Source of the DNA: a virus
Length of the DNA stretch: 64,000 nucleotides
Virus record (IMG/VR): IMGVR_UViG_3300005613_000015
Coordinates: 37,675-101,674 of that record
Strand: one strand, 5' to 3'
In this document: in pieces, positions 45,657 through 62,340 of the stretch
Numbering within the stretch: the stretch's first letter is position 1
Layout of the letters: every line of letters starts with the position of its first letter
Program-made: the position numbers and the translations under genes
Notes under the pieces: model-generated
What the model saw: only the letters and a program-made list of their open reading frames with translations
Told to the model about the DNA's origin: nothing
Database searches by the model: none

Positions 45657-45989
45657 ATGGTTAGAAACTATGTGCCCAAAAAAAGTTTCTTCGAGCCGTC
45701 TCGAATTCATAAACTTGCAAAGGATGTTCTGTCCGATTGCAAGGATGACCGCGAGCGTGCGTTAGAAACTTTTACTTACTTTAAAGACTTGGTTTCGTCT
45801 AATCCAGAGGACGACAAAGCCAAGGCTGAAATGATTCATGCTCTAGGACTTTCACAAGATGCGAATGATAAGATTGTGAAAGTTCTGGACATGATGATTA
45901 AAATGACGCAGGCTGAGAAAAAAATCGCTGCGGATAAAACTCCTAAAACCGAATCGTTGTCCTTTGAAGATTTAAGAAAGAATGGCTGA
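45657..45989 (+). CDS. Hypothetical helical protein
   Basis: The 110-residue, predominantly helical and charged protein starts one base after the previous stop and overlaps the AAA+ gene by 8 bases. Size and composition resemble small adaptor or terminase-small-subunit-like proteins, but no motif confirms this. Confidence 0.4.
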   Translation: MVRNYVPKKSFFEPSRIHKLAKDVLSDCKDDRERALETFTYFKDLVSSNPEDDKAKAEMIHALGLSQDANDKIVKVLDMMIKMTQAEKKIAADKTPKTESLSFEDLRKNG

Positions 45990-47205
45990 ATCAGATGTGT
46001 ATGTCGTATACAACCCTCATATTGATGAGTTTGTAAGGATTAAGAAGTTTTCCGAAGATGAAGTATTAGAACTCATTAAGAAGTTCGGTACAATCATCAA
46101 TCAACCGAATGCCAAGATTACAGAGTATGTAAAAACTGTACTGGCTTCTACTATTTGTGATTACTGCGCTTCGAAAGCCTCAAAATCCTTAGAGTCCCTG
46201 TTTGAGTGCGTTGTCGAGGTTTATCCCATCTTTCAAATTGATTTCGTTTGCAAGGCACTTAATGACCTGTCGGACGATGAATCAGAAAACAACGAGAAAG
46301 TATCTATTACCCGCTCTCTCGACCAGATTGAGAAGCTAACAGTCAAGCTGAAATCAAAGCTAGTAGGACAGCCTACCGCAGTTGACGAATGTATCAAATC
46401 TATCAAGCTAATGAGTTCTGGGCTTGGTAAGTTTGTATCTATGTTCTTCGTTGGTCCTACTGGTGTAGGTAAGACTGAGCTTGCACGCCTTCTTGCCTCT
46501 GAGCATCTAGGAAACTCTAAGAAGCTGCTTAAGATTAACTGTGGAGAATACTCTACAGGACATGAGTACGCTAAACTAATTGGCTCTCCTCCAGGTTATG
46601 TTGGCCACAACGAGAAAGGCATTCTGTCTGAGAAGGCAGAGGAGTCTTCTGAGTGGGTAATTCTTTTTGATGAAATCGAGAAGGCTCACCCTAAGCTAAT
46701 GAACCTTCTTCTTGGTTTTCTTGATGATGGAAAGATTACAGATAGCCGTGGAACAGAGCTAGATTTTAGCGACTCTATAATCTGCTTCACAAGTAACATT
46801 GGCATTAAGAACAATGTAGGGAAGAGACTTGTAGGATTCGGTAAAAGCGTTCAAACATACGAAGGAGCCAAGGAAAACATTGAGAAGGATTTCAAGAATC
46901 ACTTTAGCCCAGAATTCATCAACCGTTTAGATAGTGTAATCTACTTCAACCAGCTTACCAAAGAAGATGCGGCTGAAATTACAAAAATTCAGCTAAAAAA
47001 ATTACCAATTAAAATTACCAAGCGTCTTGTTGATTTTGTTGTCGAGGGTGCGTTTTCTCCTGAATATGGAGCGCGTAACATTAAACGATTTATTCGCAAC
47101 AATATAACCATTTGTTTGGCAGATACGATTCTTAAGGATGGTAGAAAAGAACTGTATAAATGCAGCTTCAAAGATAATGCTTTGTGCGTATCTGCTATTG
47201 AATAA
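45982..47205 (+). CDS. ClpA/ClpB-type AAA+ unfoldase with one ATPase ring
   Basis: The 407-residue protein has a unique N-domain (about 1-110), then a Clp-type AAA+ module: Walker A G-P-T-G-V-G-K-T (158-165), pore loop G-S-P-P-G-Y-V-G (201-208), Walker B I-L-F-D-E-I-E (227-233), sensor 1 T-S-N (270-272), arginine finger in F-I-N-R-L-D (312-317) and the C-terminal small domain. A V-G-F tripeptide at 284-286 lies where ClpA has its ClpP-binding I-G-L loop. It may unfold host or phage proteins, alone or with host ClpP. Confidence 0.8.
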   Translation: MAESDVYVVYNPHIDEFVRIKKFSEDEVLELIKKFGTIINQPNAKITEYVKTVLASTICDYCASKASKSLESLFECVVEVYPIFQIDFVCKALNDLSDDESENNEKVSITRSLDQIEKLTVKLKSKLVGQPTAVDECIKSIKLMSSGLGKFVSMFFVGPTGVGKTELARLLASEHLGNSKKLLKINCGEYSTGHEYAKLIGSPPGYVGHNEKGILSEKAEESSEWVILFDEIEKAHPKLMNLLLGFLDDGKITDSRGTELDFSDSIICFTSNIGIKNNVGKRLVGFGKSVQTYEGAKENIEKDFKNHFSPEFINRLDSVIYFNQLTKEDAAEITKIQLKKLPIKITKRLVDFVVEGAFSPEYGARNIKRFIRNNITICLADTILKDGRKELYKCSFKDNALCVSAIE

Positions 47206-49579: not shown

Positions 49580-49656
49580 GCGCCCATAGCTCAATTGGTC
49601 AGAGCACTCGTCTTATATGCGATAGGTTCTAGGTTCAAGTCCTAGTGGGCGTACCA
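49580..49656 (+). tRNA. tRNA-Ile (anticodon UAU)
   Basis: A full cloverleaf can be drawn: acceptor GCGCCCA/TGGGCGT, D arm GCTC/GAGC, anticodon loop CTTATAT with UAU at 34-36, T arm CTAGG-TTCAAGT-CCTAG, encoded CCA. The outer anticodon-stem pair (27-43) is a mismatch. It would read AUA directly, rather than via lysidine-modified CAU as in most bacteria. Confidence 0.85.
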
Positions 49657-49734
49657 AAAACATCTAGAGGCAGGATTTAGAGACATCTCTTCGTTCTTCG
49701 TGGTTGGCTCAATCCATAAGACCTCTTCTTACAA

Positions 49735-49819
49735 GCCTGGATGGTGGAATTGGTATACACATCAGACTTAAAATCTGACGCCGCGAGGCATACGGGTTCG
49801 ACTCCCGTTCTAGGCACCA
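49735..49819 (+). tRNA. tRNA-Leu (anticodon UAA)
   Basis: Class II tRNA with acceptor GCCTGGA/TCTAGGC, anticodon stem TCAGA/TCTGA with loop CTTAAAA (UAA), long variable arm, T arm with GGTTCGACTCC, and encoded CCA. Reads UUA. Confidence 0.92.
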
Positions 49820-49875
49820 AAACAACGCACTTCATAGAACATAATTAAACATAAAATAAAAACGGAGGGAAGGGA

Positions 49876-49904
49876 TTGATTGAAGCCCCTTCTTACGGTA
49901 TAAT
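49876..49904 (+). promoter_or_regulatory. Host-type promoter for the membrane nuclease gene
   Basis: -35 TTGATT (49876-49881), 17-base spacer and -10 TATAAT (49899-49904). The ATG at 49911 is six bases past the -10 box, so the mRNA should be leaderless. Confidence 0.7.
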
Positions 49905-49910
49905 ACTCAC

Positions 49911-51269
49911 ATGGAAGAAATCATCGAGCACCCGCTGTTTCTATTTCTATTACTAGGTTTCCCTTTTTGGGGGGGCATCGTTGCTATGATTGGAATTTGG
50001 TCCTTTGAGGGAGTATCCAGCATCTTTAAGGCAGTATACAACAAAGTATACAACAAAGTACGGGAAGATGTCTGGAAAGTACGGGAAGATATCTGGAAGG
50101 AAAAAGAAAGGGAGTATGAAAAAAAAGAAAGGGAGTATGAAAAAAAAGAAAGGGAGTATGAAAGAAGCTATCGAGAAAGATTACACCAACTGGAATCAAA
50201 ATATATTGGAAAAGGGGATTTTGAAAATCTAACTGACGGTAGTTGGAATTTCATAGTTAATGCCTTGAAGAAGGACGGGATTATTCAGCCCCCTTATAAG
50301 TTTCAACAATACTTGGACCGTTATGCTTGGACCCGAAAAAGGTTTATCGAAGCCTGCGATGAGAAGAAAAAGACCTTAGCCTTCACCGACTCTGAGTATC
50401 GAGCAGCATTTGAATCAATCGAGGAAGCAAAAAACACTCCCTTTCTTATTTCCGAGTATCATAAATCCCTAGAAAAAATTGATGGGAGTGATATTTCAAA
50501 GACCGTTAGTAAGTTCTTTGGTGGGTTTAGGAGTGAATTGAAAGAAGTTTCTCTTATTCGTGTTATTGATGGTGATACTTATGTATTTGATTTGGATGGG
50601 CACAGCATTAAGGTTCGTGGAATCGGCTTTGATTGTCCTGAACTAAATACTACTAATCACTCTTTTGTGGAGGCTTATGCTGAAGAAGCTACGGAATATG
50701 CTAGACAAATCCTATCTGATGCTAAAATCATGATTCGTATGGACAAACAAGCTCTAGACTTTGAAGACGGTCCCTTCGTCTTTGACCGATATGGAAGATT
50801 GCTTTGCCATATTTATGTTGATGGTAGCCTTCTTTCTGAGTCTTTGATTGGTGGGGGTCTTGCGAGAGTGGTTGGTAGTTTCCCTATCGAAAAAGATATC
50901 AAAAAATCTCTAAACAAGGCTCAGGTTGGAGCAAAATCAGAACGATTGAATTTGTGGTCGCTTCAATCTAACAACCCTGATAAACTGAATCCTATTGAGC
51001 TTGTGGATTCGCTTTCTAGCTCTAAAGAGGAAATGGGTATGTTGCTTCTGCGGGCTTTTCTTTCCTCGGTTGTCATGTCTAAAAATAGTAACATTATACA
51101 CGCCCCTGGCTGTACCTTTTCTGATAGAATTCTAGACCAAAATAAGCTCTCGGATGCAGAGGTGATTCAAATAATTAAAGACGTTTCTAATGCCCGAGCA
51201 TGTAAGAAGTGTGGGGGTGATGAAGTAGTTCAGGAAATGATTAACGAGGAACTTCAAGACCTAGAATAA
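49911..51269 (+). CDS. Membrane-anchored staphylococcal-nuclease-like protein
   Basis: The 452-residue protein has an N-terminal membrane helix (about 8-32), a coiled-coil stalk made of heptad repeats (about 42-90), a linker, and a thermonuclease domain (about 212-325) with the catalytic set intact: V-I-D-G-D-T (Asp220), R-G-I-G-F-D-C-P-E (Arg236, Asp241, Glu244) and D-R-Y-G-R (Arg293/Arg296). A C-terminal H-A-P-G-C...C-K-K-C segment (about 398-433) looks like a small metal site. Strong host-type promoter, leaderless start. A nuclease tethered to the membrane could act on incoming or host DNA. Confidence 0.75.
   Translation: MEEIIEHPLFLFLLLGFPFWGGIVAMIGIWSFEGVSSIFKAVYNKVYNKVREDVWKVREDIWKEKEREYEKKEREYEKKEREYERSYRERLHQLESKYIGKGDFENLTDGSWNFIVNALKKDGIIQPPYKFQQYLDRYAWTRKRFIEACDEKKKTLAFTDSEYRAAFESIEEAKNTPFLISEYHKSLEKIDGSDISKTVSKFFGGFRSELKEVSLIRVIDGDTYVFDLDGHSIKVRGIGFDCPELNTTNHSFVEAYAEEATEYARQILSDAKIMIRMDKQALDFEDGPFVFDRYGRLLCHIYVDGSLLSESLIGGGLARVVGSFPIEKDIKKSLNKAQVGAKSERLNLWSLQSNNPDKLNPIELVDSLSSSKEEMGMLLLRAFLSSVVMSKNSNIIHAPGCTFSDRILDQNKLSDAEVIQIIKDVSNARACKKCGGDEVVQEMINEELQDLE
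50055..50165 (+). repeat. 21-bp tandem repeats encoding coiled-coil heptads
   Basis: Two near-identical 21-bp units (50055-50096, K-V-R-E-D-V/I-W) are followed by three units of another 21-bp repeat (50103-50165, K-E-R-E-Y-E-K). Each unit is one heptad, so copy changes would lengthen the stalk in frame. Confidence 0.85.
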
Positions 51270-51294
51270 TACGGCTGAGAGAAGGAGTATATCA

Positions 51295-51939
51295 ATGACT
51301 GAATCTAAAGTAGAACTTTTAAACTATACCCCACAAGGAGACCTACTTGTTGTAAATGCAGCAAGATGTTCATTCGATAAACAGCATGATACATTCGATG
51401 AAGAAAAAGATACTCGCCTTATCAACTATCTGGCAAGAGAGAAGCACCTTCTCCCGTTTCGCCATCCTTCTGCTACTCTACGAATTTATGCTCCTATTTT
51501 CGTATTCCGTCAGCTCGGTAAGCACCAAGTAGGCTTTTCGTGGAGCGAGGTGAGTCGTAGATACATTTCTTCTGAACCTGAGTTCTGGGTTCCCAAAGAA
51601 GTTCGTAAAAAAGCAGACAATGTAAAGCAAGGTTCATCTGAGGAAACACTTCCTAATTCTTGGATTGTAGACTTTCAACAACAAAATAAATCATGTCTTC
51701 ATACCTACAATACTCTTCTTAGGGCTGGGGCATCACCAGAGCAAGCCCGTGCTGTTCTGCCACAATCCATGTATACGACCTGTGTGGTTACAGGAACGCT
51801 TCTGGGATGGCACCACCTCTATACTCAGAGGACGGAAGAACACACGCAGAGAGAGACGCAGGAGTACGCTCAGGAGATAGGGGATGTGATGTCTGAACTA
51901 TTTCCTAGAAGTTGGAAGGCTTTAAATGAAAATATTTAG
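51295..51939 (+). CDS. thyX: Flavin-dependent thymidylate synthase ThyX
   Basis: The 214-residue protein has the ThyX fold signature F-R-Q-L-G-K-H-Q-V-G-F-S-W-S-E-V-S-R-R-Y. The textbook R-H-R-x7-S is here K-H-Q with the later Ser and R-R-Y kept, a variant I associate with phage and viral ThyX. A-R-A-V-L-P and W-H-H-L segments follow. It makes dTMP from dUMP, downstream of dUTPase and dCMP deaminase. GGAG ribosome-binding site. Overlaps the next gene by 14 bases. Confidence 0.88.
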   Translation: MTESKVELLNYTPQGDLLVVNAARCSFDKQHDTFDEEKDTRLINYLAREKHLLPFRHPSATLRIYAPIFVFRQLGKHQVGFSWSEVSRRYISSEPEFWVPKEVRKKADNVKQGSSEETLPNSWIVDFQQQNKSCLHTYNTLLRAGASPEQARAVLPQSMYTTCVVTGTLLGWHHLYTQRTEEHTQRETQEYAQEIGDVMSELFPRSWKALNENI

Positions 51940-52123
51940 ATTCTGTAAAGCAGTTATCAAATGGGCGTTGTCTGGCTTTAAGTTATCAAACCTGCATGAT
52001 AAGAGGATGGAGACTTGTTTTATCTGTACCCACTATAACAAAGGTAGGTGTGATATTTGTGGATGTGTATTACGAGCCAAGACGAGGATGTTTACTGAGG
52101 AATGCCCAATAAAGAAATGGTAA
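51926..52123 (+). CDS. Small zinc-binding protein
   Basis: The 65-residue protein has an N-terminal hydrophobic/basic segment and a C-terminal metal site: C-F-I-C...C-D-I-C-G-C...E-E-C-P followed by K-K-W, a pattern common in small phage zinc proteins. It overlaps thyX by 14 bases. Function unknown. Confidence 0.6.
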   Translation: MKIFRFCKAVIKWALSGFKLSNLHDKRMETCFICTHYNKGRCDICGCVLRAKTRMFTEECPIKKW

Positions 52124-52126
52124 AAG

Positions 52127-52266
52127 GCAGTATCCTTTTGAGACTGCCGAATGGCTGAGATTGAACAAGGGAAGAGATTGGTAAGGGATTGAGGTTCGAT
52201 TCCTCTTTAGTATGGTACATGAACAGGCGACGGCCACCCGAAGGTTCGAGTCCTTCCTCTTCCACC
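52127..52266 (+). other. tRNA-derived debris (degenerate tRNA sequences)
   Basis: Several tRNA-like pieces can be read but no complete cloverleaf: a D-arm-like ATGGCTGAG (about 52150), a T-arm GAGG-TTCGATT-CCTC (52191-52205), and a tRNA-Ser-like 3' end with GAAGG-TTCGAGT-CCTTC and acceptor strand CTCTTCC (52257-52263) matching GGAAGAG at 52170-52176. The acceptor match and missing middle suggest a rearranged or decayed Ser-type tRNA. Confidence 0.45.
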
Positions 52267-52273
52267 TTACAAC

Positions 52274-52297
52274 GCACCCATAGCTCAATTGGATAGA
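52274..52297 (+). pseudogene. 5' half of an interrupted tRNA gene
   Basis: GCACCCA-TA-GCTC-AATTGGATA-GA is the acceptor strand and D arm of a tRNA, closely like the tRNA-Ile upstream. It breaks off after the first bases of the second D-stem strand. Its acceptor strand pairs with the strand at 52924-52930, 640 bases downstream. Confidence 0.7.
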
Positions 52298-52773
52298 TTT
52301 AGTATTCCATTATCAAACTCCCAATGGCAGTTTCTACATAATTGAATAACATTGTCTGGATGATTTACTTCTTCCAATAGAGCAGAGTCTGGGAACGACG
52401 AAACTGCTTTGATGTGGCAAAGTTCAACATGCTTATTATACCCACAGTTGGCGCAAGGTTTTGTTATAAGGTCTTTATTCCAACTACGACAAAAATTCCT
52501 TACATGAGAATGAACCCAAGAGGGGTGCTTCCCTTTTACTGATGTTTTTTCTCTGTATTCACCTAGAGTTTTCTTTTTAATCGCTGGTTGACAAGCATCA
52601 CACCAAGTTTTTCTAGTACTAATACCAACCCCACAAGTTCTACAAGAACCTTCTGGTTGACGATAGGAGTCTTTACCCCTTTGTTTGTTGGTATACTGTG
52701 CTGAACATGACCGAGAACAAAATTTTGGATTATCAGTTTTCTGGTTACAGTTTATACAAGTCTTATCTATCAT
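52285..52773 (-). CDS. HNH homing-endonuclease-like protein inserted in a tRNA gene
   Basis: The 162-residue protein has an N-terminal zinc-ribbon-rich half (C-x2-C pairs at about 6-9, 19-23, 44-47, 58-61) and an HNH nuclease domain: C-A-N-C (107-110), L-C-H (His120), H-P-D-N (Asn141), C-R-N-C-H (146-150). It is antisense to the surrounding tRNAs and its last codons lie within the 5' half of the broken tRNA. A mobile, site-specific endonuclease that invaded the tRNA array is the likely explanation. Confidence 0.8.
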   Translation of the reverse strand: MIDKTCINCNQKTDNPKFCSRSCSAQYTNKQRGKDSYRQPEGSCRTCGVGISTRKTWCDACQPAIKKKTLGEYREKTSVKGKHPSWVHSHVRNFCRSWNKDLITKPCANCGYNKHVELCHIKAVSSFPDSALLEEVNHPDNVIQLCRNCHWEFDNGILNLSN

Positions 52774-52780
52774 AATATAT

Positions 52781-52855
52781 GGGGGTATGGTGTAACAGAT
52801 AGCACATGACTCTTCTAAAGTCAGAGTGAGGGTGCAATTCCTTCTACCCCTACCA
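52781..52855 (+). tRNA. tRNA-Arg (anticodon UCU)
   Basis: Acceptor GGGGGTA/TACCCCT, D arm GTGT/GCAC, anticodon stem TGACT/AGTCA with loop CTTCTAA (UCU), T arm GAGGG-TGCAATT-CCTTC, encoded CCA. Reads AGA. The T loop has G at position 55 instead of T. It begins just upstream of the HNH gene start. Confidence 0.85.
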
Positions 52856-52906
52856 TATATTTATATAGGTGAGTCGAACCTCTAACCTAATAAAAAAATA
52901 AAGCTT

Positions 52907-52934
52907 TCTGGTTCGAGTCCAGATGGGTGTACCA
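52907..52934 (+). pseudogene. 3' half of the interrupted tRNA gene
   Basis: T arm TCTGG-TTCGAGT-CCAGA, acceptor strand TGGGTGT, discriminator A and CCA. It complements the 5' half at 52274. No anticodon arm can be found next to either half, so the gene is probably inactive unless the interval is removed as an intron. Confidence 0.7.
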
Positions 52935-52978
52935 TCTACATAATACACAGCCAGCAACCTTGGCAAGAAGGAGATAAA

Positions 52979-54442
52979 ATGCAACCAAATATTGAAATTA
53001 GTTTAACGGTAAGAGGAGGTATGGAGTCTAAAATCTCCGTTCCTCAGAATCTAAAATGGATTAACGAAGGACATCTTCGTTATATTGAGTATTGTGAAAA
53101 CCTTTTGGGGAGTCTTGTCCATGTGTTTATGATTAGGCACACTGGTTTTGATGCTACCGAAGTTATCGTCAATCTTTCTAATGGAGTCGTTGAAAATGGT
53201 ATTATATACTTTACTGACTACATGGTGAAAGTAGATGACCAGATGGAAAGGTATACTGGCCGTCATGTAATCCGACCCCGAGGAATGTTTGCTGACCGAT
53301 TTGTGGTTGGACCTGATGCAGAAAAGGTCCGCAACTACCAGCATATTCCCACTAAAAAAGAGCCTTCTTGGGCATCGAGCCAAGCCCATGACCTTATTGT
53401 ACAATATCGTGATAGGAGAGAAGATTCTTATGGTCCTTATAAGCCTTTTTGGAATAAGTTCCATTCCCTCTCGGATTCCCACGGAGGGGCTGGAGTCTCT
53501 CCTTACTCGAACTGGCTGGGTTCCCCTCTAGGATACCAAATTCGTGCTCTTGAATTCTATGGAGAGGTTTGTCGTTCTCCTCTAGCCTGCATGAATAGCC
53601 GAGGACAAACTCTTCGTCTGGATGAGCAATACTGGCTGGGAAGAACCCCTCAGCACGAACTTCCTCAATTCAATTACAGAGATGAATATGATGGTTGGTG
53701 TCCTTATGAGGAGTGGCTTCTTCGTTATGAGGCTCACGACTACACCCACCTCTGGAGAACAATTCGTGCTGCATCTGAACTAGCCCACTGGAACCCTTTT
53801 GCTAGAAAGTTCCTTCTTTGGGTTTGGAATGATTGTACGATGTGGTTACTTGGAAAGAAAGGAAATACTTCTACCAATTCTCTTTTCTGGTCACTAACGA
53901 AACTTGCAAGAACTACTGCCCCCAACCAAACCGCATCTTGGGGTGGTCGAGGACTATATCATGTAATTCGATGCTTCCTCACCGTGAAGCAGTATCTTTC
54001 AGTTCGTGAACAGAACTATTTCACAAACCAGTTCCAAAAGACTCTTCGGCATATTGCGAATGAGTATGGTGTGTGCCACGGAACTAAGTCTGCTGGTGCT
54101 TGGGGTCAGGCTGTTTGGGACCACTTCGGAGACACAGAGGTCGCTAGAGGATTTGAAACCCAACTGCTTGCTAGTGTGTATGAACCTCTAGGACTAATGG
54201 ACCTCCTAGACAAGTACAACACGACATTCCCAGAGGAAGTTCCTAACTGGTTTGAAGCAAATAATCCTGTAAACAATTACGGTGGAGAACTCTATCCTCC
54301 TTACCGTGCTCTTTATGTAAATCGAGTAAGTGGATATCCAAGTGCTGAAAAGCTGGTAGAGATGTCTGCTGGCAGAAATATTAACGGGTCTTCTCAAGAT
54401 TTAGACTGTCATATGAATACAGCATATCAAAATGAACTATGA
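52979..54442 (+). CDS. Unknown 487-residue protein, aromatic-rich
   Basis: A near-perfect ribosome-binding site (AAGGAGATAAA) precedes the ATG, so the gene is well translated. I do not recognise the family. The N-terminal 110 residues are beta-rich. Residues about 150-430 are helical and unusually rich in Trp, Tyr and His (many W/Y-containing helix starts such as Y-E-E-W and W-N-D-C-T-M-W), which recalls alpha/alpha-barrel carbohydrate enzymes, but no catalytic residues can be assigned. It follows the broken tRNA and precedes the dCMP deaminase gene. Confidence 0.5.
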   Translation: MQPNIEISLTVRGGMESKISVPQNLKWINEGHLRYIEYCENLLGSLVHVFMIRHTGFDATEVIVNLSNGVVENGIIYFTDYMVKVDDQMERYTGRHVIRPRGMFADRFVVGPDAEKVRNYQHIPTKKEPSWASSQAHDLIVQYRDRREDSYGPYKPFWNKFHSLSDSHGGAGVSPYSNWLGSPLGYQIRALEFYGEVCRSPLACMNSRGQTLRLDEQYWLGRTPQHELPQFNYRDEYDGWCPYEEWLLRYEAHDYTHLWRTIRAASELAHWNPFARKFLLWVWNDCTMWLLGKKGNTSTNSLFWSLTKLARTTAPNQTASWGGRGLYHVIRCFLTVKQYLSVREQNYFTNQFQKTLRHIANEYGVCHGTKSAGAWGQAVWDHFGDTEVARGFETQLLASVYEPLGLMDLLDKYNTTFPEEVPNWFEANNPVNNYGGELYPPYRALYVNRVSGYPSAEKLVEMSAGRNINGSSQDLDCHMNTAYQNEL

Positions 54443-54447
54443 GGCTC

Positions 54448-54453
54448 TATAAT
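54448..54453 (+). promoter_or_regulatory. -10 box giving leaderless dCMP deaminase mRNA
   Basis: TATAAT lies five bases before the ATG at 54459. No -35 box or ribosome-binding site seen. Confidence 0.5.
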
Positions 54454-54458
54454 AAAAT

Positions 54459-54902
54459 ATGGCAAACCAAGAAAGACTAGACGAGACTTACATGGCGATG
54501 GCTGAGAAGCTTTCCGAGCTTTCTCACGCAGAACGAGCAAAAGTAGGTGCTTTGATTGTAAAGGACACTCATATTATTGCAGAGGGCTATAATGGAACCC
54601 CAGCAAGGTTCCCAAACAGATGTGAGGATTATGATTTCTTGGGATACTATCGTACGAAACCAGAAGTGCTTCATGCGGAGTCTAATGCTATTGCTAAAAT
54701 CGCTAAGTCTACAAATAGTTCTCTTGGTGCCACTTTGTATACTACTTTGGCTCCTTGCGTAGAGTGTTCTAAGTTAATCATTCAGGCAGGAATTTTCAGA
54801 GTAGTTTACAAAAATACTTACCACAGTACTGGAATAGCTTTGCTAAAAAAAGCAGGTATTCAAGTTGATTTCCTTACTAGAGAATCTAAGGGGCCAGCAT
54901 AG
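54459..54902 (+). CDS. dCMP deaminase
   Basis: The 147-residue protein has zinc motifs H-A-E (72-74) and P-C-V-E-C (99-103) plus the N-terminal A-x-V-G-A-L-I-V segment and G-Y-N-G-T-P of deoxycytidylate deaminases. It makes dUMP for ThyX. Its last codons form the start of the tRNA-Thr gene, an overlap of 10 bases. Confidence 0.9.
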   Translation: MANQERLDETYMAMAEKLSELSHAERAKVGALIVKDTHIIAEGYNGTPARFPNRCEDYDFLGYYRTKPEVLHAESNAIAKIAKSTNSSLGATLYTTLAPCVECSKLIIQAGIFRVVYKNTYHSTGIALLKKAGIQVDFLTRESKGPA

Positions 54903-54968
54903 CTCAATTGGCAGAGCAATTGACCTGTAATCAATAGGTTTTCGGTTCGAGTCCGAATGCTGGCTCCA
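54893..54968 (+). tRNA. tRNA-Thr (anticodon UGU) overlapping the deaminase gene
   Basis: Acceptor GCCAGCA/TGCTGGC, D arm GCTC/GAGC, anticodon stem ATTGA/TCAAT with loop CCTGTAA (UGU at 34-36), T arm TTCGG-TTCGAGT-CCGAA, discriminator T and encoded CCA. Position 33 reads C instead of the near-universal U. The 5' acceptor strand encodes the C-terminus of the deaminase. Reads ACA. Confidence 0.88.
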
Positions 54969-56019: not shown

Positions 56020-56048
56020 TTGACCTGGGGGCGGTTCTGTGGTATAAT
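56020..56048 (+). promoter_or_regulatory. Host-type promoter for the AAA/vWA cassette
   Basis: -35 TTGACC (56020-56025), 17-base spacer, -10 TATAAT (56043-56048). The leader opens with a small hairpin closed by a TTCG loop and has GGAGG 9-13 bases before the ATG. Confidence 0.75.
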
Positions 56049-56107
56049 ACGGCTTCCCTTCGGGGGATTCTACTTCTTCCCTGTTCCCTGCGCTGGAGGC
56101 GCGACCT

Positions 56108-56923
56108 ATGTTTGTAATCGACGAAACCAAAAAGGAAATGCTCACCGCCCTTATTCAGTCTGGTAAGAACTGTCTTCTTACTGGTGCGACTGGATGCGGT
56201 AAAACTACTCTTTGCTTTGAGATTGCTAAAGAGCTTGGCATGAACCCTGTTGTTATCAACATGGGTTCGACGCAAGATGCCCGTACTTCGCTTGTCGGGT
56301 ATCATGTTCTTGAGAACGGCAATACCCGTTTCCAAGTTTCCGATTTCATCAACGCGATTCAGACGCCTAACACGCTCATCATTCTTGACGAGCTTTCTCG
56401 CGCTTCTGATGATGCGTTCAACATCGTGTTCCCGCTTCTCGATTTCCGCAAGGACATTCGTGTTGAGGAGCTTTCCAATGGTAACGGTGAGACGATTCAT
56501 GTTGACCCGACTGTGCGTTTTGTCGCTACGGCAAACATCGGTCTGGATTACTCGTCTGCCCGTTCGCTTGACCGCGCTCTGAAAGACCGCTTTATTCCTT
56601 TCCACCTCGACTACATTCCTGGCAAGGAACTCAAGAAGTATATCACCGCTCTGTATGATGGTGAAACCTCGAAAGCGGTGAAACCCCTTCTTGATGTTTA
56701 CGATTACTCGCACCAACAATACAAGGAGAGCAAGATTTCTTCTATGATTTCTACTCGTATGGTTCTTGAGTGTGTTCCGCTTCTCAAGCAGTTCCCGCTC
56801 AAAGCTATTCTGAACAATGTTCTTCTGTCCATGTACGAAGAGGATTCGTGCAGCATTGTGAATGATGCGAACATCATTCGTGAGTACGCCGATTCGCTTG
56901 GTCTGTTCGAGGTGAAACCGTGA
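56108..56923 (+). CDS. MoxR/CobS-like AAA+ ATPase
   Basis: The 271-residue protein is a single AAA module of the MoxR/CobS type: Walker A G-A-T-G-C-G-K-T (26-33), Walker B L-I-I-L-D-E (90-95) followed by L-S-R-A, sensor-1 A-T-A-N (about 140-143) and the arginine region L-K-D-R-F. MoxR ATPases work with vWA proteins to remodel or insert metal into partners; a vWA gene lies four genes downstream. Known relatives include CobS genes in cyanophages. Overlaps the next gene by 4 bases. Confidence 0.85.
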   Translation: MFVIDETKKEMLTALIQSGKNCLLTGATGCGKTTLCFEIAKELGMNPVVINMGSTQDARTSLVGYHVLENGNTRFQVSDFINAIQTPNTLIILDELSRASDDAFNIVFPLLDFRKDIRVEELSNGNGETIHVDPTVRFVATANIGLDYSSARSLDRALKDRFIPFHLDYIPGKELKKYITALYDGETSKAVKPLLDVYDYSHQQYKESKISSMISTRMVLECVPLLKQFPLKAILNNVLLSMYEEDSCSIVNDANIIREYADSLGLFEVKP

Positions 56924-57108
56924 TGAAAAAGCAAACCTACGCTATCATGGTTCTTTCTGATGGAGAAACCTACACCGCTGCTAAAGATTGTGAGATTCTC
57001 ATTCTGAACGATGAGGGTATGGACCTTCTCGAAGAGGGAGGAAGCCCTTTGGACCTTCTCGAAGAACACCTTGTTCATACTATCAAGTTTGACGCATACG
57101 ATGACTGA
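56920..57108 (+). CDS. Small acidic protein in AAA/vWA cassette
   Basis: The 62-residue acidic protein is translated from an ATGA overlap with the AAA gene and overlaps the HExxH gene by 8 bases. Residues 31-48 contain a short internal repeat (M/L-D-L-L-E-E). No family recognised. Confidence 0.5.
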   Translation: MMKKQTYAIMVLSDGETYTAAKDCEILILNDEGMDLLEEGGSPLDLLEEHLVHTIKFDAYDD

Positions 57109-58423
57109 TAAGATTGAGATTGATGCGGAATACATGAACCGCTGGCTTGGAGAAAATAGTTCTATTCAAACGCTTTCTCCGAAGACTATGTACGATGTCC
57201 AGGCGCTACTTGAGTATTATCGTGATATTATTGTTCCTGGGTCTAAGGTTTCCATTTCCTTTCCTGTAGAAAAGGGTAACACTTCTCCGCGTGCTTCTAT
57301 CGAGCATAACGAAGTTATCATTCCCTTGTACCTGCTACAAGAAGGACGGGTTGACCATACCATCGGTGCGATGATTCACGAACTGCACCACATCAAACTT
57401 AGTCCTAGTGAGCGGTTTATCCAAAACACCGCTTTCAGGTTTCTGCGTGGATTGATGGAGAATATCGAGTGTGGAGGAATGTCTCTTGCAGAGCGTGTCT
57501 TCTCTGATTCTAGCGTCTCTCGCAAGGTTATCTTTTCCGACGAGCAGAATGTAAGTAACGATGTTCTCTTTCTTCGTCAGGCGATTAGCGATTTGCTTTT
57601 CCTGATGAACGCTGTTGAGGATGTTCGTATTGATGCAAACACTCCTCCGAACCTGCGAAAGTATATCGACAAGGTTGATGCTTCTGCTAGGGAAAGGTTG
57701 AAAGAAATGTTCGAAGATGGTAGTTTGGATATGGAAGACCTTTCTTCTATTGGACTGCTGCTTCTTGGACATCACAAAGGTATGTTCGAGTCTGAGTTTG
57801 TCGCAGAACGATTCGGTGATATCGACCGTATCGTAAATGGCGACCCGCTCTCTCTGTCGAAGGAACTCTTCATCGCGTTCCAGAAAGAGATTGCTGCTCA
57901 TGTTCGAGAACTTTACTTCAAGTATTGTGGAGTTCCTAAAAGCACTAACACGCAATCCGGTTTGGATGTTAGCTTTGACCTAGATGCCTACTTCGGTAGT
58001 AAGGTTCAAGGTACTGTCGGTGAGGGTATTGAGAACGAGTTTTCTTCAATGCCTGTTGCGGAATCGCAAGATACGCAAGATGCGATGTCGGAAGACCATG
58101 CGCTGTCTTCTGATTCCGAAGAGCTGAAAGAGCTTGGCAAACAAGCGGCAAAAGCACTTCAAGAAGCTGATGCCGAGAAAGCTGATGTAACTCCCACCAA
58201 ACCGATTTCTGTTGCTGGGGATGTTACGAACAAAAATCCAATGTCCGCTGCGGAGGCTTACCGTATTGAGATTGAAGATAAGAAAAAAGATGTTTTCATG
58301 GACACTGCTACCTCGATGCAGGTAAAATCGTTCCGAGATGTTCAGGTTTTCACCGCTACTGAACACTTCAATGATAACAAAGTGGTGTTCGATGCTGTTC
58401 TCTACGATACCGTAAACCAGTAA
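57101..58423 (+). CDS. HExxH protein of the AAA/vWA cassette
   Basis: The ATG at 57101 gives 440 residues. The motif A-M-I-H-E-L-H-H (His93, Glu94, His97) preceded by a beta-strand region looks like the zinc site of a metallopeptidase-like domain; such domains accompany vWA/MoxR systems (VMAP/DUF2201-like). A helical region with N-A-V-E-D-V-R-I-D (about 170-180) follows, and an acidic, low-complexity tail (about 320-380). Acting with the AAA and vWA proteins is inferred from overlap and order. Confidence 0.6.
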   Translation: MTDKIEIDAEYMNRWLGENSSIQTLSPKTMYDVQALLEYYRDIIVPGSKVSISFPVEKGNTSPRASIEHNEVIIPLYLLQEGRVDHTIGAMIHELHHIKLSPSERFIQNTAFRFLRGLMENIECGGMSLAERVFSDSSVSRKVIFSDEQNVSNDVLFLRQAISDLLFLMNAVEDVRIDANTPPNLRKYIDKVDASARERLKEMFEDGSLDMEDLSSIGLLLLGHHKGMFESEFVAERFGDIDRIVNGDPLSLSKELFIAFQKEIAAHVRELYFKYCGVPKSTNTQSGLDVSFDLDAYFGSKVQGTVGEGIENEFSSMPVAESQDTQDAMSEDHALSSDSEELKELGKQAAKALQEADAEKADVTPTKPISVAGDVTNKNPMSAAEAYRIEIEDKKKDVFMDTATSMQVKSFRDVQVFTATEHFNDNKVVFDAVLYDTVNQ

Positions 58424-58436
58424 CCAACCTATACAG

Positions 58437-59135
58437 ATGAAACTTTACTACATTCAACATCCTCTTACCGAACTCAACAACCTTTCTGACGATGTTTGTG
58501 CAACCTTTACTGACGACCAGATTTCGGAATATTCTTCTCTGTACGATGAGTATTTGACGGTACAACGAAAAGCAGCAAGTGACGGTGTAGATATTGCGAA
58601 CCAGCTTCGTGACCTTATCCGAAAGCTATTCAATGACCCGAATAGTCCGTACAGCACTTCGAAGCAGTCGAAATACTTTGAGCGTATGATTCGAAACGGC
58701 GAAACCATTGTCGATATTCACTCTCGCCGTTATCCGAAACCGTCTGCTGTTCGTACACGCATCGAAGCTGCTCGTGAGCGGTTTCCTGCCACTACGGATT
58801 CGTCTCCGACGCACAGCCAAGAGACTCTACAGGAAATCAACAATGCCGTTGCGTATCTTCTTGAGCAGGGCATGGAACTCAATCGAGACTTTACTGTGTC
58901 TAACGCTCTTGCAGTTGCTAGTGTGTTTGCGGAAACTAAACTAGTTGAGTTCGGTGCTAAAAAGTCCCAGGTCGAAGGGTTCGATATGATGATTGAAGGC
59001 GTCCCTCGCCCGATTTCTCGACTGGAAGTGTTTGGAACTACTTACTATGTTCACGGAGACGATTTCATTTCAGAACGGATTCTTAAGCTCAACATTTCAT
59101 TCAAGCAAGGTAAGACCCCTACCCTTCTCAAGTAA
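58437..59135 (+). CDS. Unknown protein between HExxH and vWA genes
   Basis: The 232-residue protein shares a TAATG junction with the vWA gene. The first 120 residues are helical, the rest mixed alpha/beta. No motif recognised. Its constant place inside the overlapping cassette suggests it is a subunit or substrate adaptor of the AAA/vWA machine. Confidence 0.5.
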   Translation: MKLYYIQHPLTELNNLSDDVCATFTDDQISEYSSLYDEYLTVQRKAASDGVDIANQLRDLIRKLFNDPNSPYSTSKQSKYFERMIRNGETIVDIHSRRYPKPSAVRTRIEAARERFPATTDSSPTHSQETLQEINNAVAYLLEQGMELNRDFTVSNALAVASVFAETKLVEFGAKKSQVEGFDMMIEGVPRPISRLEVFGTTYYVHGDDFISERILKLNISFKQGKTPTLLK

Positions 59136-60046
59136 TGACTCAGCCTAGCTACACTTTCTCTAGCCAACACCTATTTCACGAAACCGCTGTTGGTCTAACT
59201 ACGCACTACCGCGACTTCATGTATGAGAAGTTTCGTCGGCACATCACGCTTCTTCTCGAACAGAAGAAGAGCCGCAAAGTTCCTTCGCGTAAAGGACTGC
59301 TGAATCCTCGCCATCTTCACCGATACCAGTATTCTGATAACATCTTTGAGAAGACTATTCGTACCACGACTACCGACACTACGATTGTATTTCTCATTGA
59401 CGGTTCTGGTAGTATGGATGCCAAGGTAAGCACTCCGCTCGGAACCGAAATCTCTGCGATGCGAATGTGTGGTGCAGTAGCCTCTGCTTTTGCAAAAGCT
59501 AATGCTACGGTTCTAAAAAATAGTCTACCCCTTGAAGTGTTTGTAAAGTCCGCTCCTCCTGTTGAGAGTTTGGATGCTACAGGAACGAATAACGGTGGTA
59601 TGGTTACTCTCACTCGCGTATTCTCTTCGAACGCAAAGAAGCAAGACTACAACCGTTTGTGTACGCTCAGACCTTACTCTCCTCTGGTAAGTAGTGAGGG
59701 TCGTCTAGTTGGTAGTTTTACTTCTGAGTATGCTGTTCTTCCCGCTCTAAGCAAGTGGATGAAGAAGAATATTCGAACCAAACAGTGTATTGTCTTCAAC
59801 CTTACTGATGGTGAGACTTACTGCCTGGTTGGCAATCAGTATCAGTTCCGAAATAGAGATACGAAAGCTATGCGTATGAAATACCTTCGTGGGATTCCGA
59901 ATGTTACTCTAATGATTGATTCAAACTACGGTTATGGGGGTTCAAACATGGAGTCTCTTCGTGATACTTACGGAGACAATATGTTGCTTGCTTCTGAGGA
60001 CTTCACGGGCGCACTCTTCCGTGTTTTTGCGGGGTTCTTGAACTGA
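59135..60046 (+). CDS. von Willebrand factor A-domain protein (CobT-like)
   Basis: The 303-residue protein has a basic N-terminal region (about 1-80) and a vWA domain with a complete MIDAS start D-G-S-G-S-M-D (Asp89, Ser91, Ser93) and a later L-T-D-G-E. This is the partner class of MoxR/CobS ATPases. Overlap of one base with both neighbours (TAATG, TGATG) implies coupled translation. Metal-dependent protein binding is expected; the client is unknown. Confidence 0.8.
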   Translation: MTQPSYTFSSQHLFHETAVGLTTHYRDFMYEKFRRHITLLLEQKKSRKVPSRKGLLNPRHLHRYQYSDNIFEKTIRTTTTDTTIVFLIDGSGSMDAKVSTPLGTEISAMRMCGAVASAFAKANATVLKNSLPLEVFVKSAPPVESLDATGTNNGGMVTLTRVFSSNAKKQDYNRLCTLRPYSPLVSSEGRLVGSFTSEYAVLPALSKWMKKNIRTKQCIVFNLTDGETYCLVGNQYQFRNRDTKAMRMKYLRGIPNVTLMIDSNYGYGGSNMESLRDTYGDNMLLASEDFTGALFRVFAGFLN

Positions 60047-60630
60047 TGCTTACTAACGACCAATGGAAAAAGATTCAGTCCAAATACAAACGACTAATGT
60101 ACGCAATCGCTCACCGCATTGGAGGTGATAAGGTCGCACATGACTTTGATGATTCGCAGCAAGACCTTTCGATTATTGCGATGGATGCTGTGGATGCGTA
60201 TGCTCGTAAGACTGGAAAAGAGTTTGACGAGTTCTTTGGCACCGTAGAGTTTGATAAGTATATCAAGACCTGTCTGTGGAACAAGAAGAACAATACAGGT
60301 AACAAAATCAAGAAGAAATACGGTGTTCGAAACTGTGTTTCTCTCTCTGAAAACCCTGAAATGTTCTCCACGCAAACGGGAACTACTTACGGTAGCAACT
60401 CGTTGGAGGTAGAAGCTCATTCGCTATCCGCGTTTGACGATGCTCCGCTCGATACTCTGTCCCGCCGTGTTGTAGATGCGGTAGCTGATGATATGCGAAT
60501 CATCAAGCCTGATGGTTCTCTCAATGTTTCAAAACTAGCGCGTATTCTTGATACGCCTAAAGCAGAAGTTCGCAACGCAATCGACCGCCTCAAGTTTCAA
60601 CTACAGGATTATAACGATGAAAGTCTCTAA
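60046..60630 (+). CDS. Second sigma-like protein
   Basis: The 194-residue protein resembles sigma-70 region 2 in residues about 15-95 (I-G-G-D-K-V-x-H-D-F-D-D-S-Q-Q-D, then F-D-K-Y-I-K-T-C-L-W-N-K-K-N) and has an HTH-like end (about 165-190, V-S-K-L-A-R-I-L...E-V-R-N-A-I). It differs from the gp55-like protein at 29877. It overlaps the vWA gene, so it may be part of the cassette or a middle-phase sigma expressed with it. Confidence 0.6.
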   Translation: MLTNDQWKKIQSKYKRLMYAIAHRIGGDKVAHDFDDSQQDLSIIAMDAVDAYARKTGKEFDEFFGTVEFDKYIKTCLWNKKNNTGNKIKKKYGVRNCVSLSENPEMFSTQTGTTYGSNSLEVEAHSLSAFDDAPLDTLSRRVVDAVADDMRIIKPDGSLNVSKLARILDTPKAEVRNAIDRLKFQLQDYNDESL

Positions 60631-61183
60631 AAATCTTCCCCCCATTTTCGCATACAACATTGTTAAGGCGCTGTCTGTGATTTCCACTTATGTAAAGTCT
60701 TTGTGGCCGGAAAAAGGGGATGCGTGTGGCACGATTCTAGCTGCGTTCAAGGATTCGGGAATGGACCTCCGACCTCCCATGTCGGGTTTTGTTGCGATTT
60801 TCAACAATCCCGAAAAGCGTGTAAAGTATAACAGCACCAACGGTTTGAGCTTTGTTATTTCTACGGGTCTGATTCGCGCTGCTCTCAATGAGTACATTCT
60901 TTGCTGTAGTGTTGAACGTCGTGATTTCGTTGCCGGGTTTGTTGTTCTTGATATGCTGCGCTACTTAGAAGAAACCAACTTGAATGTTATTGAGTTTACT
61001 CTCGGTGCGCCTCTAGTGTCTCGGCGTTTCCATGAGTACGATAAACAGCCTGTACAGTTCCCTCTTTGTGACCGTTACCAAGAACATTCTTGGAATACTG
61101 TGCTAAAAACTACCTATCCAAGCTATGATACTAGTGCAGACGCCCTTAAAACCATTTTTCAAGCAGAATACAACATTCTATGA
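60617..61183 (+). CDS. Unknown protein following the sigma-like gene
   Basis: The ATG at 60617 gives 188 residues and overlaps the sigma-like gene by 14 bases; an upstream start would overlap by 83. Mixed alpha/beta, with Cys-Cys and several Phe/Tyr-rich strands, no recognised motif. The chain of overlaps from 56108 to 61428 suggests one operon. Confidence 0.45.
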   Translation: MKVSKNLPPIFAYNIVKALSVISTYVKSLWPEKGDACGTILAAFKDSGMDLRPPMSGFVAIFNNPEKRVKYNSTNGLSFVISTGLIRAALNEYILCCSVERRDFVAGFVVLDMLRYLEETNLNVIEFTLGAPLVSRRFHEYDKQPVQFPLCDRYQEHSWNTVLKTTYPSYDTSADALKTIFQAEYNIL

Positions 61184-61428
61184 AAGAACAAGACGATTAC
61201 GAAGCAATCAATCACCCTGCACATTACAACATCGGAATCGAAACCACGGAGTATATTCAGTCTTGGGGAATGTCTTTTGTTGAAGGTAACATCATCAAGT
61301 ATGTGTCTCGATACAAATGGAAACGTGGTCTTCAAGACCTGAAAAAAGCCCAATGGTATCTCAACTACCTGATTTCCAAAGTTCAATCTGAGTCTTCCGA
61401 GACTAAAAAAGAGGAAGATTATAGTTGA
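61180..61428 (+). CDS. DUF3310 protein
   Basis: The 82-residue protein matches DUF3310: N-H-P-A-H-Y-N, I-E-x-T-E-Y-I, G-N-I-I-K-Y-V-S-R-Y-K-W-K, G-L-Q-D-L-K-K-A-x-W-Y-L. The family is frequent in phages, often next to nucleotide-metabolism genes, function not established. ATGA overlap with the previous gene. Confidence 0.85.
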   Translation: MKEQDDYEAINHPAHYNIGIETTEYIQSWGMSFVEGNIIKYVSRYKWKRGLQDLKKAQWYLNYLISKVQSESSETKKEEDYS

Positions 61429-61453
61429 CGCACGGCGTCCTTTATGGTATAAT
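61425..61453 (+). promoter_or_regulatory. Strong host-type promoter with leaderless start
   Basis: -35 TTGACG (61425-61430), 17-base spacer, -10 TATAAT (61448-61453). The ATG at 61460 is six bases after the -10 box. Confidence 0.75.
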
Positions 61454-61459
61454 GACGGC

Positions 61460-61993
61460 ATGAATATTTTTGCAATCGAGAATGATGTCCAAGGCAACAT
61501 CGACTGGTATCAGTCTGCTTTGTCGCACGACAACTTCCGCGTCAACAAAATGATTATCGAATCATGCCAAATGCTCTCTACCAATGCACAGTTGATGGGT
61601 GAGACTACGCGATACCGTATGTCGTTTCAGAATCACCCATCAACTATATGGTCCCGAGAGTCTTCTACCAACTTCCGCGACCTTGTAACGCTCGCTAAGT
61701 CTTTGCGCGATGAGTTTTGTCGTCGGTACAACCGCGATAAGCACGGCTGCGATGATGTAATCGAGCAGATGCAAACTCTCATCACTACTCCGTCGTTCGT
61801 CAATCGCTTTTCCCAGCACACACCTACGCAGCTTCCTCTGTGTATGCCTGACGAATATAAGACTGCTAGTGTTGTCGAGTCTTACCGTAACTACTTTGCC
61901 AACAAACCTAACTTGCGTTACTTTGTTGGACAAGTCCCTGAATGGGTTTCGCAGTACCGTACTGTTGATACTCCGATTGCTATTCAAGAATGA
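61460..61993 (+). CDS. Phage protein of the 'pyrimidine-dimer glycosylase-like' family
   Basis: The 177-residue protein has the pattern M-N-I-F...N-K-M-I-I-E-S-C-Q-M-L-S-T, N-H-P-S-T-I-W, and L-P-L-C-M-P-D-E-Y-K-T...V-E-S-Y-R-N-Y-F of a widespread phage family often annotated as pyrimidine dimer DNA glycosylase. I have not confirmed catalytic residues, so DNA repair is a provisional role. Strong host-type promoter just upstream. Overlaps the next gene by 4 bases. Confidence 0.65.
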   Translation: MNIFAIENDVQGNIDWYQSALSHDNFRVNKMIIESCQMLSTNAQLMGETTRYRMSFQNHPSTIWSRESSTNFRDLVTLAKSLRDEFCRRYNRDKHGCDDVIEQMQTLITTPSFVNRFSQHTPTQLPLCMPDEYKTASVVESYRNYFANKPNLRYFVGQVPEWVSQYRTVDTPIAIQE

Positions 61994-62340
61994 TTGAACA
62001 CGCAAAGAAGGCGGCTCGAAATGGCCACGGCAAGTTTCGTCTTGGCGCGGCTATTTACGACAAGAAAGGAAAGCTGATTTCGGTCGGCTGGAATAAACCA
62101 AAGACGCACCCGAAGTATGGTTCTCATCTTTTCAATAAGATTCATGCGGAAGGTGATGCGCTCATCAAAGCACTCAGGAAGACCAAGACTTTGAAAGGCG
62201 CTTACATTGTTGTCTATCGGCATCGTGGGAACATGGCAAAGCCTTGTCCGTGCTGCGAGAATATGCTGCGCGAAGCAGGGATTGAGCGTGTTTACTATAC
62301 CGATGGAAAAGATAATCTACAGCAAATGAGGTTAAACTAA
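61990..62340 (+). CDS. Second cytidine/deoxycytidylate deaminase-like protein
   Basis: The 116-residue protein has H-A-E (52-54) and P-C-P-C-C (85-89) with the usual deaminase strand order, but is shorter than the dCMP deaminase at 54459 and has R-L-G-A-A-I in place of the longer N-terminus. Substrate could be a free base, nucleoside or RNA. ATGA and TAATG overlaps bind it to its neighbours. Confidence 0.75.
   Translation: MIEHAKKAARNGHGKFRLGAAIYDKKGKLISVGWNKPKTHPKYGSHLFNKIHAEGDALIKALRKTKTLKGAYIVVYRHRGNMAKPCPCCENMLREAGIERVYYTDGKDNLQQMRLN

Follow-up and report, generated by a model that had tools for sequence, protein, structure and literature searches.

Gene content and conservation of the cassette

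In a 64,000-base stretch of viral DNA (bases 37675-101674 of IMG/VR record IMGVR_UViG_3300005613_000015, total 101,674 bases; hereafter the window), we analyzed a compact cassette that encodes an AAA+ ATPase (AAA), a metallopeptidase-like protein with an HExxH motif (HEX), a subunit of unknown family (UNK), and a von Willebrand factor A protein (vWA), followed by a sigma-like protein (SIG) (Table 1). The source phage is tailed, with a contractile sheath, and also encodes a DNA polymerase, UvsX, and a DnaB-type helicase; compared by sheath and polymerase, even its closest cultivated relatives are distant. A first-pass annotation had described seven overlapping or near-abutting genes behind a host-type promoter (TTGACC-17-TATAAT), with Walker A and B motifs in AAA, HELHH in HEX, and DGSGSM in vWA, and had read them as one machine; gene order, coordinates, promoter, and motifs are all present as it described them. 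Neighboring genes in the region overlap by 1 to 14 bases, the sole exception being a 13-base gap before 58437.

Table 1. Promoter and genes of the cassette region, in window coordinates
Feature	Position	Strand	Evidence or remark
Sigma-70-type promoter, TTGACC-N17-TATAAT, TG before -10	56020..56048	+	~60 bases upstream of the AAA start codon
AAA, AAA+ ATPase of CobS/NorQ/MoxR type, 271 aa	56108..56923	+	Pfam, PHROGs, and PDB profile matches
Small open reading frame, 61-62 aa	56920..57108	+	No homolog in 22 loci
HEX, separate metallopeptidase-like subunit, 440 aa	57101..58423	+	hhalign, AlphaFold2/Foldseek, motifs
UNK, unknown subunit, 232 aa	58437..59135	+	Conserved helical core
vWA, CobT_C-type vWA protein, 303 aa	59135..60046	+	hhalign, complete MIDAS
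SIG, sigma-like protein, 194 aa	60046..60630	+	Weak Sigma70_r2 match
Last open reading frame, unknown, 188 aa	60617..61183	+	Not conserved with the cassette

A search with the AAA gene returned 8 viral contigs (49-86% identity), and profiles of AAA, vWA, and the HExxH protein added more, bringing the cassette to at least about 30 contigs and about 16 distinct phage loci in which AAA is 47-86% identical. The loci were collected by pattern scans, a method that overlooks distant relatives, and the contigs are fragments that include several near-copies. A hidden Markov model (HMM) survey gave the order AAA-HEX-(UNK)-vWA, with SIG following after zero to ~2.5 kb of other genes, and all relatives with sufficient flanking sequence retain AAA-HEX-vWA. 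Among 22 relatives, no noncassette neighbor except SIG is kept in all loci; the upstream gene recurs in about half. The first-pass annotation had named in advance a lack of co-location, or freely varying HExxH and MIDAS residues, as the outcome that would speak against a machine; homologs are instead co-located, the MIDAS is invariant, and the zinc site is nearly so. A dedicated unit of MoxR/CobS-type AAA, vWA, and HExxH proteins is thus borne out. It is smaller than the seven genes first proposed, as neither the last open reading frame (ORF) nor the 61-aa ORF is conserved among the 22 relatives at the HMM threshold. For the former, the only hit was a weak one (E 6e-5), to a 264-aa ORF of contigs L002/L003. 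The latter is found in this phage only; close relatives have HEX directly after AAA.

AAA+ ATPase and vWA protein

The two most constant members of the cassette are readily assigned. AAA carries a Walker A (GATGCGKT), a Walker B (LIILDELSR), and an arginine-rich DRALKDRF motif, and these key residues are kept in 17 to 19 of 19 loci. It matches Pfam AAA_5 above the cutoff (3e-16) and phrog_249 (3.7e-25), and in a PDB profile search Midasin scored best, followed by CobS (2.6e-20), NorQ (2.9e-20), and CbbQ. Its AAA_5-type core, with Walker A, Walker B, sensor 1, and arginine finger, together with an adjoining gene for a vWA partner with a complete metal ion-dependent adhesion site (MIDAS), places it in the CobS/NorQ/MoxR group. 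A further AAA gene upstream of the cassette, at 45982-47202, was considered as a paralog and rejected, being a Clp-type ATPase (phrog_4871); cassette-free relatives likewise carry such a gene upstream of SIG.

The MIDAS of vWA (DGSGS...T196...D225) is full, its residues D89, S91, S93, T196, and D225 are invariant in all 18 loci, and DxSxS is present in 83 of 83 fused homologs, in which vWA corresponds to the C-terminal half (hhalign E 5e-13 for family A11 and 1.7e-13 for the cyanophage family phrog_459). Neither vWA nor HEX matched the CobT models PF06213 and PF11775 above the cutoff. With respect to VMAP ternary systems, vWA ends with its own vWA domain and UNK has no Pfam match, in a search that did not call the VMAP-C profile by name.

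A separately encoded peptidase-like subunit and its accessory protein

HEX contains HELHH at residue 93, a second motif, NAVEDVRIDANTPP, from residue 170, an acidic linker, and a conserved C-terminal tail. Of 19 split loci, 17 retain the zinc site (HExxH and, downstream, NxxEDxRI), as do most fused proteins, and conservation points to the downstream glutamate as third ligand. The AlphaFold2 model (predicted local distance difference test score, 80) resembles minigluzincins in Foldseek with probabilities of 0.97-0.98 but nonsignificant E values of 0.4-0.8, and among viral models it matches a "cobalamin biosynthesis protein" with probability 1.0. HEX is accordingly best described as a predicted gluzincin-like metallopeptidase module, with zinc binding and proteolysis likewise predicted.

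The first-pass annotation had regarded the HExxH subunit as an addition to a MoxR-vWA pair. Profile comparison shows a different relationship: HEX and vWA correspond to the two halves of a protein that many phages encode as one chain, under the name "CobT" or "peptidase" and alongside "CobS," and HEX is the N-terminal half of this usual protein, separately encoded. Its alignment to the N-terminal half of fused family A11 spans both zinc motifs (hhalign E 1.8e-7); the HEX profile gave no alignment with phrog_459. On the AAA-domain tree, the split architecture needs one change in 95% of 200 bootstrap trees, and the split form appears to have evolved once.

Loss of the peptidase site is found on both sides of this division. 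The split loci L008 and L108 (/L109) have lost HExxH and lack UNK; L008 and L108 are divergent, and they group on the AAA tree (91/96), both on long branches. Fused proteins lacking the site occur in Thermus P23-45-like, Pseudomonas nickie, and Stenotrophomonas phages, and three further fused entries lacking it are cut short by the end of their contig. The motor and grip are constant throughout, whereas the cutter has been lost in some lineages. SSU5-like CobT proteins (L165 2507-4849 and L167 2761-4866), annotated as cobaltochelatase or porphyrin biosynthesis proteins, keep HEVAH and NALEDVFIER, a gluzincin-like site.

UNK consists of a conserved N-terminal helical core with SKQxKYxxR...G and a C-terminal beta part that is dispensable, being missing from short forms of 114-132 aa. 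It has no match in Pfam (E<=1), PHROGs, NCBIfam, or a PDB fold search, and the possibility that it is a fragment of the fused protein was rejected, as it has no profile match to those proteins. Because UNK and the zinc site are missing in the same lineage, we suggest that UNK assists the peptidase, with the caution that this joint absence may be one single event.

Promoter

A TTGACA-17-TATAAT-like site lies within 150 bases upstream of AAA in 16 of 18 loci at up to 2 mismatches and in 10 of 18 at up to 1, against 3% and 0.35%, respectively, of random 150-base stretches. Scans of bacterial genome contigs for vWA and HEX, aimed at finding the host, gave no match. Within the window, TTGACN combined with an intact TATAAT occurs only at 56020 and 61425, neither of which lies in the structural and replication region. 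The strong host-type promoter of the cassette points to transcription by host polymerase early or midway in infection, with early expression probable. A conserved leader hairpin between promoter and AAA was rejected after 18 leaders were folded (mean z, -0.7). The second near-consensus promoter (61425-61453) has a -10 element that ends ~6 bases before an ATG at 61460, and a transcript from it would be nearly leaderless or begin within the ORF.

Sigma-like gene

SIG has a region-2-like N terminus and a helix-turn-helix-like C terminus. In the window it matches Pfam Sigma70_r2 at E 7e-4, with 19.7 bits against a curated cutoff of 24, and TIGR02937 at 0.001, and Sigma70_r2 matches 15 of 18 SIG homologs (best, 6e-6), which makes the sigma-like call weak but consistent. 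Identity with a T4 gp55-like late sigma or the Listeria LP-110 "sigma" was rejected, as a profile compared with these single sequences gave no match. The first-pass annotation had counted SIG among the subunits of the machine. SIG is indeed present in every cassette locus with enough flank, but a search also found it in about 25 contigs with no cassette nearby. Nine cassette-free SIG records (33 to 130 kb, some of which may be fragments) contained no vWA homolog, whereas one was found in 3 of 3 cassette records searched in parallel. As SIG occurs in relatives without the cassette, it is probably not part of the machine and instead a core gene of the lineage, beside which the cassette sits.

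A link between SIG and the machine may nevertheless exist, since in some unrelated phages CobT-CobS is immediately followed by a sigma-like gene related to SIG. In Rhizobium phages RHEph10, RHph_X66, and V1VFA-S, the order is CobT-CobS-sigma-hypothetical-DnaE, and the CobS and sigma genes overlap; Stenotrophomonas BUCTxx99 and contig L082 show a similar arrangement, with the sigma-like gene directly after CobT-CobS. This CobS-linked family aligns with SIG over 161 columns (E 1.3e-9), and its profile finds only SIG genes and its own members among ~7,000 ORFs of the fetched loci. No sigma-like protein was recognized beside CobS in SSU5, Cyrano, or nickie, and we found no paper in the open-licence literature linking a sigma factor to phage CobS/CobT. 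Sigma-70-like genes directly 3' of CobT-CobS are located at L162 6254-6898, L163 6212-6847, L168 6254-6898, L166 6195-6902, and L082 3009-3638.

Proposed function and alternatives

In our favored reading, to which we give a probability of about 0.55, the cassette encodes a CobS/NorQ-type AAA/vWA remodeling machine, probably expressed early, with a separate predicted gluzincin subunit and a putative protein target. The best template for its mechanism is NorQ/NorD, in which a NorQ hexamer binds one NorD and a finger of the vWA domain has been modeled in the pore (PMC9976466). The NorD MIDAS contacts the target and is required for activity on it, not for NorQ binding, and the N-terminal domain of NorD has been suggested to confer specificity (PMC9976466). 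By analogy, AAA would form a hexamer and hydrolyze ATP, and vWA would dock on this ring as in NorQ/NorD and grip the target through its MIDAS metal. HEX, a specificity and cleavage module carried here as a separate subunit, would select the target and in most lineages cut or edit it, with UNK, a new helical subunit, assisting. Made from a strong host-type promoter, probably early, such a machine would act on a host or early phage protein. Several points weigh against this reading. The fold matches of HEX are partial, with a TM-score by target of ~0.48 and an E value that is not significant. A host-type promoter tells which polymerase can initiate, not when. Finally, cleavage cannot be essential everywhere, because the peptidase site has been lost in L008, L108/L109, and some fused proteins.

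The same proteins could instead serve virion assembly, as an AAA/vWA chaperone whose peptidase processes or assembles structural proteins. This idea was advanced for the fused pair in group 2.2 jumbo phages, in a paper that also cites a MoxR-vWA system needed for tail assembly in Acidianus two-tailed virus (PMC7824862); the contractile tail of the window phage agrees with such a role, and the wide spread of these genes among phages fits a general function. We nevertheless consider virion assembly possible and clearly the less probable explanation, as the cassette (56-60 kb) is well separated from the structural genes (tail sheath, 23-26 kb), is preceded by a host-type promoter of its own in nearly all loci, and can lose its peptidase site. 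Host RNA polymerase, a possible target named by the first-pass annotation, is an unlikely one. SIG would then be a subunit or adaptor, and the AAA/vWA/peptidase complex would remodel or cut a transcription factor; the presence of SIG after the cassette in every locus with enough flank, and the SIG-related genes directly after CobT-CobS in RHEph10, RHph_X66, V1VFA-S, BUCTxx99, and L082, whose family aligns with SIG and whose profile finds only its own members and SIG genes, speak for this. The cassette-free SIG contigs, with no vWA homolog in nine of them, speak against it, as do the up to ~2.5 kb of other genes between vWA and SIG and the lack of a detected SIG-type gene near most fused pairs (cyanophage, jumbo, Bacteroides, and Listeria loci). 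The sole hint of RNA polymerase remodeling is those distant sigma-like genes in unrelated phages. Equally unlikely is the broader version, in which an AAA/vWA motor and metallopeptidase coupled to a sigma-like protein remodel or cut host transcription proteins and the "cobalamin" annotation is wrong throughout; if true, the recurrence of sigma-like genes directly after CobT-CobS would reflect a transcription-targeting function.

In a further alternative, the CobS/CobT-like proteins would join host CobN to insert cobalt and raise the supply of vitamin B12. Both AAA and vWA do belong to CobS/CobT-related families, CobT_C is matched in the fused proteins of L009 and L012, and a published proposal holds that viral CobST recruits host CobN (PMC8651126). 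Such a booster is very improbable here: CobN (PF02514) was found neither in the record nor in eight related records, by a search that detected it in 5 of 14 control genomes, none of the CobT models matches the window proteins, and the phage form has retained a gluzincin-like site of which no trace can be seen in the N-terminal region of bacterial CobT, a region that aligns weakly.

Relation to known systems

The remodeling machine that we favor is not a new kind of system, because its combination of three domains has already been published: a MoxR AAA+ protein paired with a vWA protein bearing an N-terminal metallopeptidase was described for group 2.2 jumbo phages (PMC7824862). The cassette shares with that pair a CobS/MoxR-type AAA, an HExxH zincin, and a MIDAS vWA, all encoded by adjacent genes. 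It differs in having separate peptidase and vWA genes, an extra subunit between them, and a dedicated host-type promoter, and in residing in a phage that is not jumbo (record, ~102 kb). With homology to both the HExxH and vWA parts and no fusion of the two in one protein, it is a variant and not a plain member of the jumbo-type pair. The CobS and "peptidase" of cyanophages (phrog_249 and phrog_459; for example, in Synechococcus phage S-WAM1) resemble it in a homologous vWA and in HExxH plus NxxEDxRI, but there the protein is fused, the peptidase precedes AAA, and UNK is absent. Aerobic cobaltochelatase CobS-CobT (CobN) has the same architecture of AAA and CobT_C-type vWA; the cassette, unlike it, lacks CobN, keeps a gluzincin-like site, and leaves the N- and C-terminal Pfam models of CobT unmatched. 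NorQ-NorD, CbbQ-CbbO, and RavA-ViaA likewise combine an AAA+ motor with a MIDAS vWA partner, and their mode of action is likely shared, although they are cellular and the partners carry different N-terminal domains, with no peptidase known among them. Haloarchaeal virus HHTV-2 has a split CobT (PMC8651126); the passage that describes it mentions no third gene.

New here are the once-evolved split, the helical subunit UNK, the conserved dedicated promoter, and the repeated loss of the peptidase site. Hundreds of phage records contain a CobS/CobT-like pair (one CobS alone gave 601 matches), and such pairs are commonly annotated as vitamin B12 genes. With the AAA, peptidase, vWA, and accessory parts naturally divided among separate subunits, what motor, grip, and cutter each contribute can be tested individually, and the lineages that have lost both the peptidase site and the accessory gene help in this.

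Neighboring features

Membership of the cassette in a defense system was considered and rejected: PADLOC gave no match for HEX, UNK, vWA, or SIG and only generic ATPase matches for AAA. No Rfam element was found between 55000 and 62500. Upstream of the cassette, window positions 49580-54968 contain four tRNA genes (Ile-TAT, Leu-TAA, Arg-TCT, and Thr-TGT). Two ORFs recognized by eye as deaminase-like, with zinc motifs HAE...PCxxC, flank the cassette region at 54459-54902 and 61990-62340.

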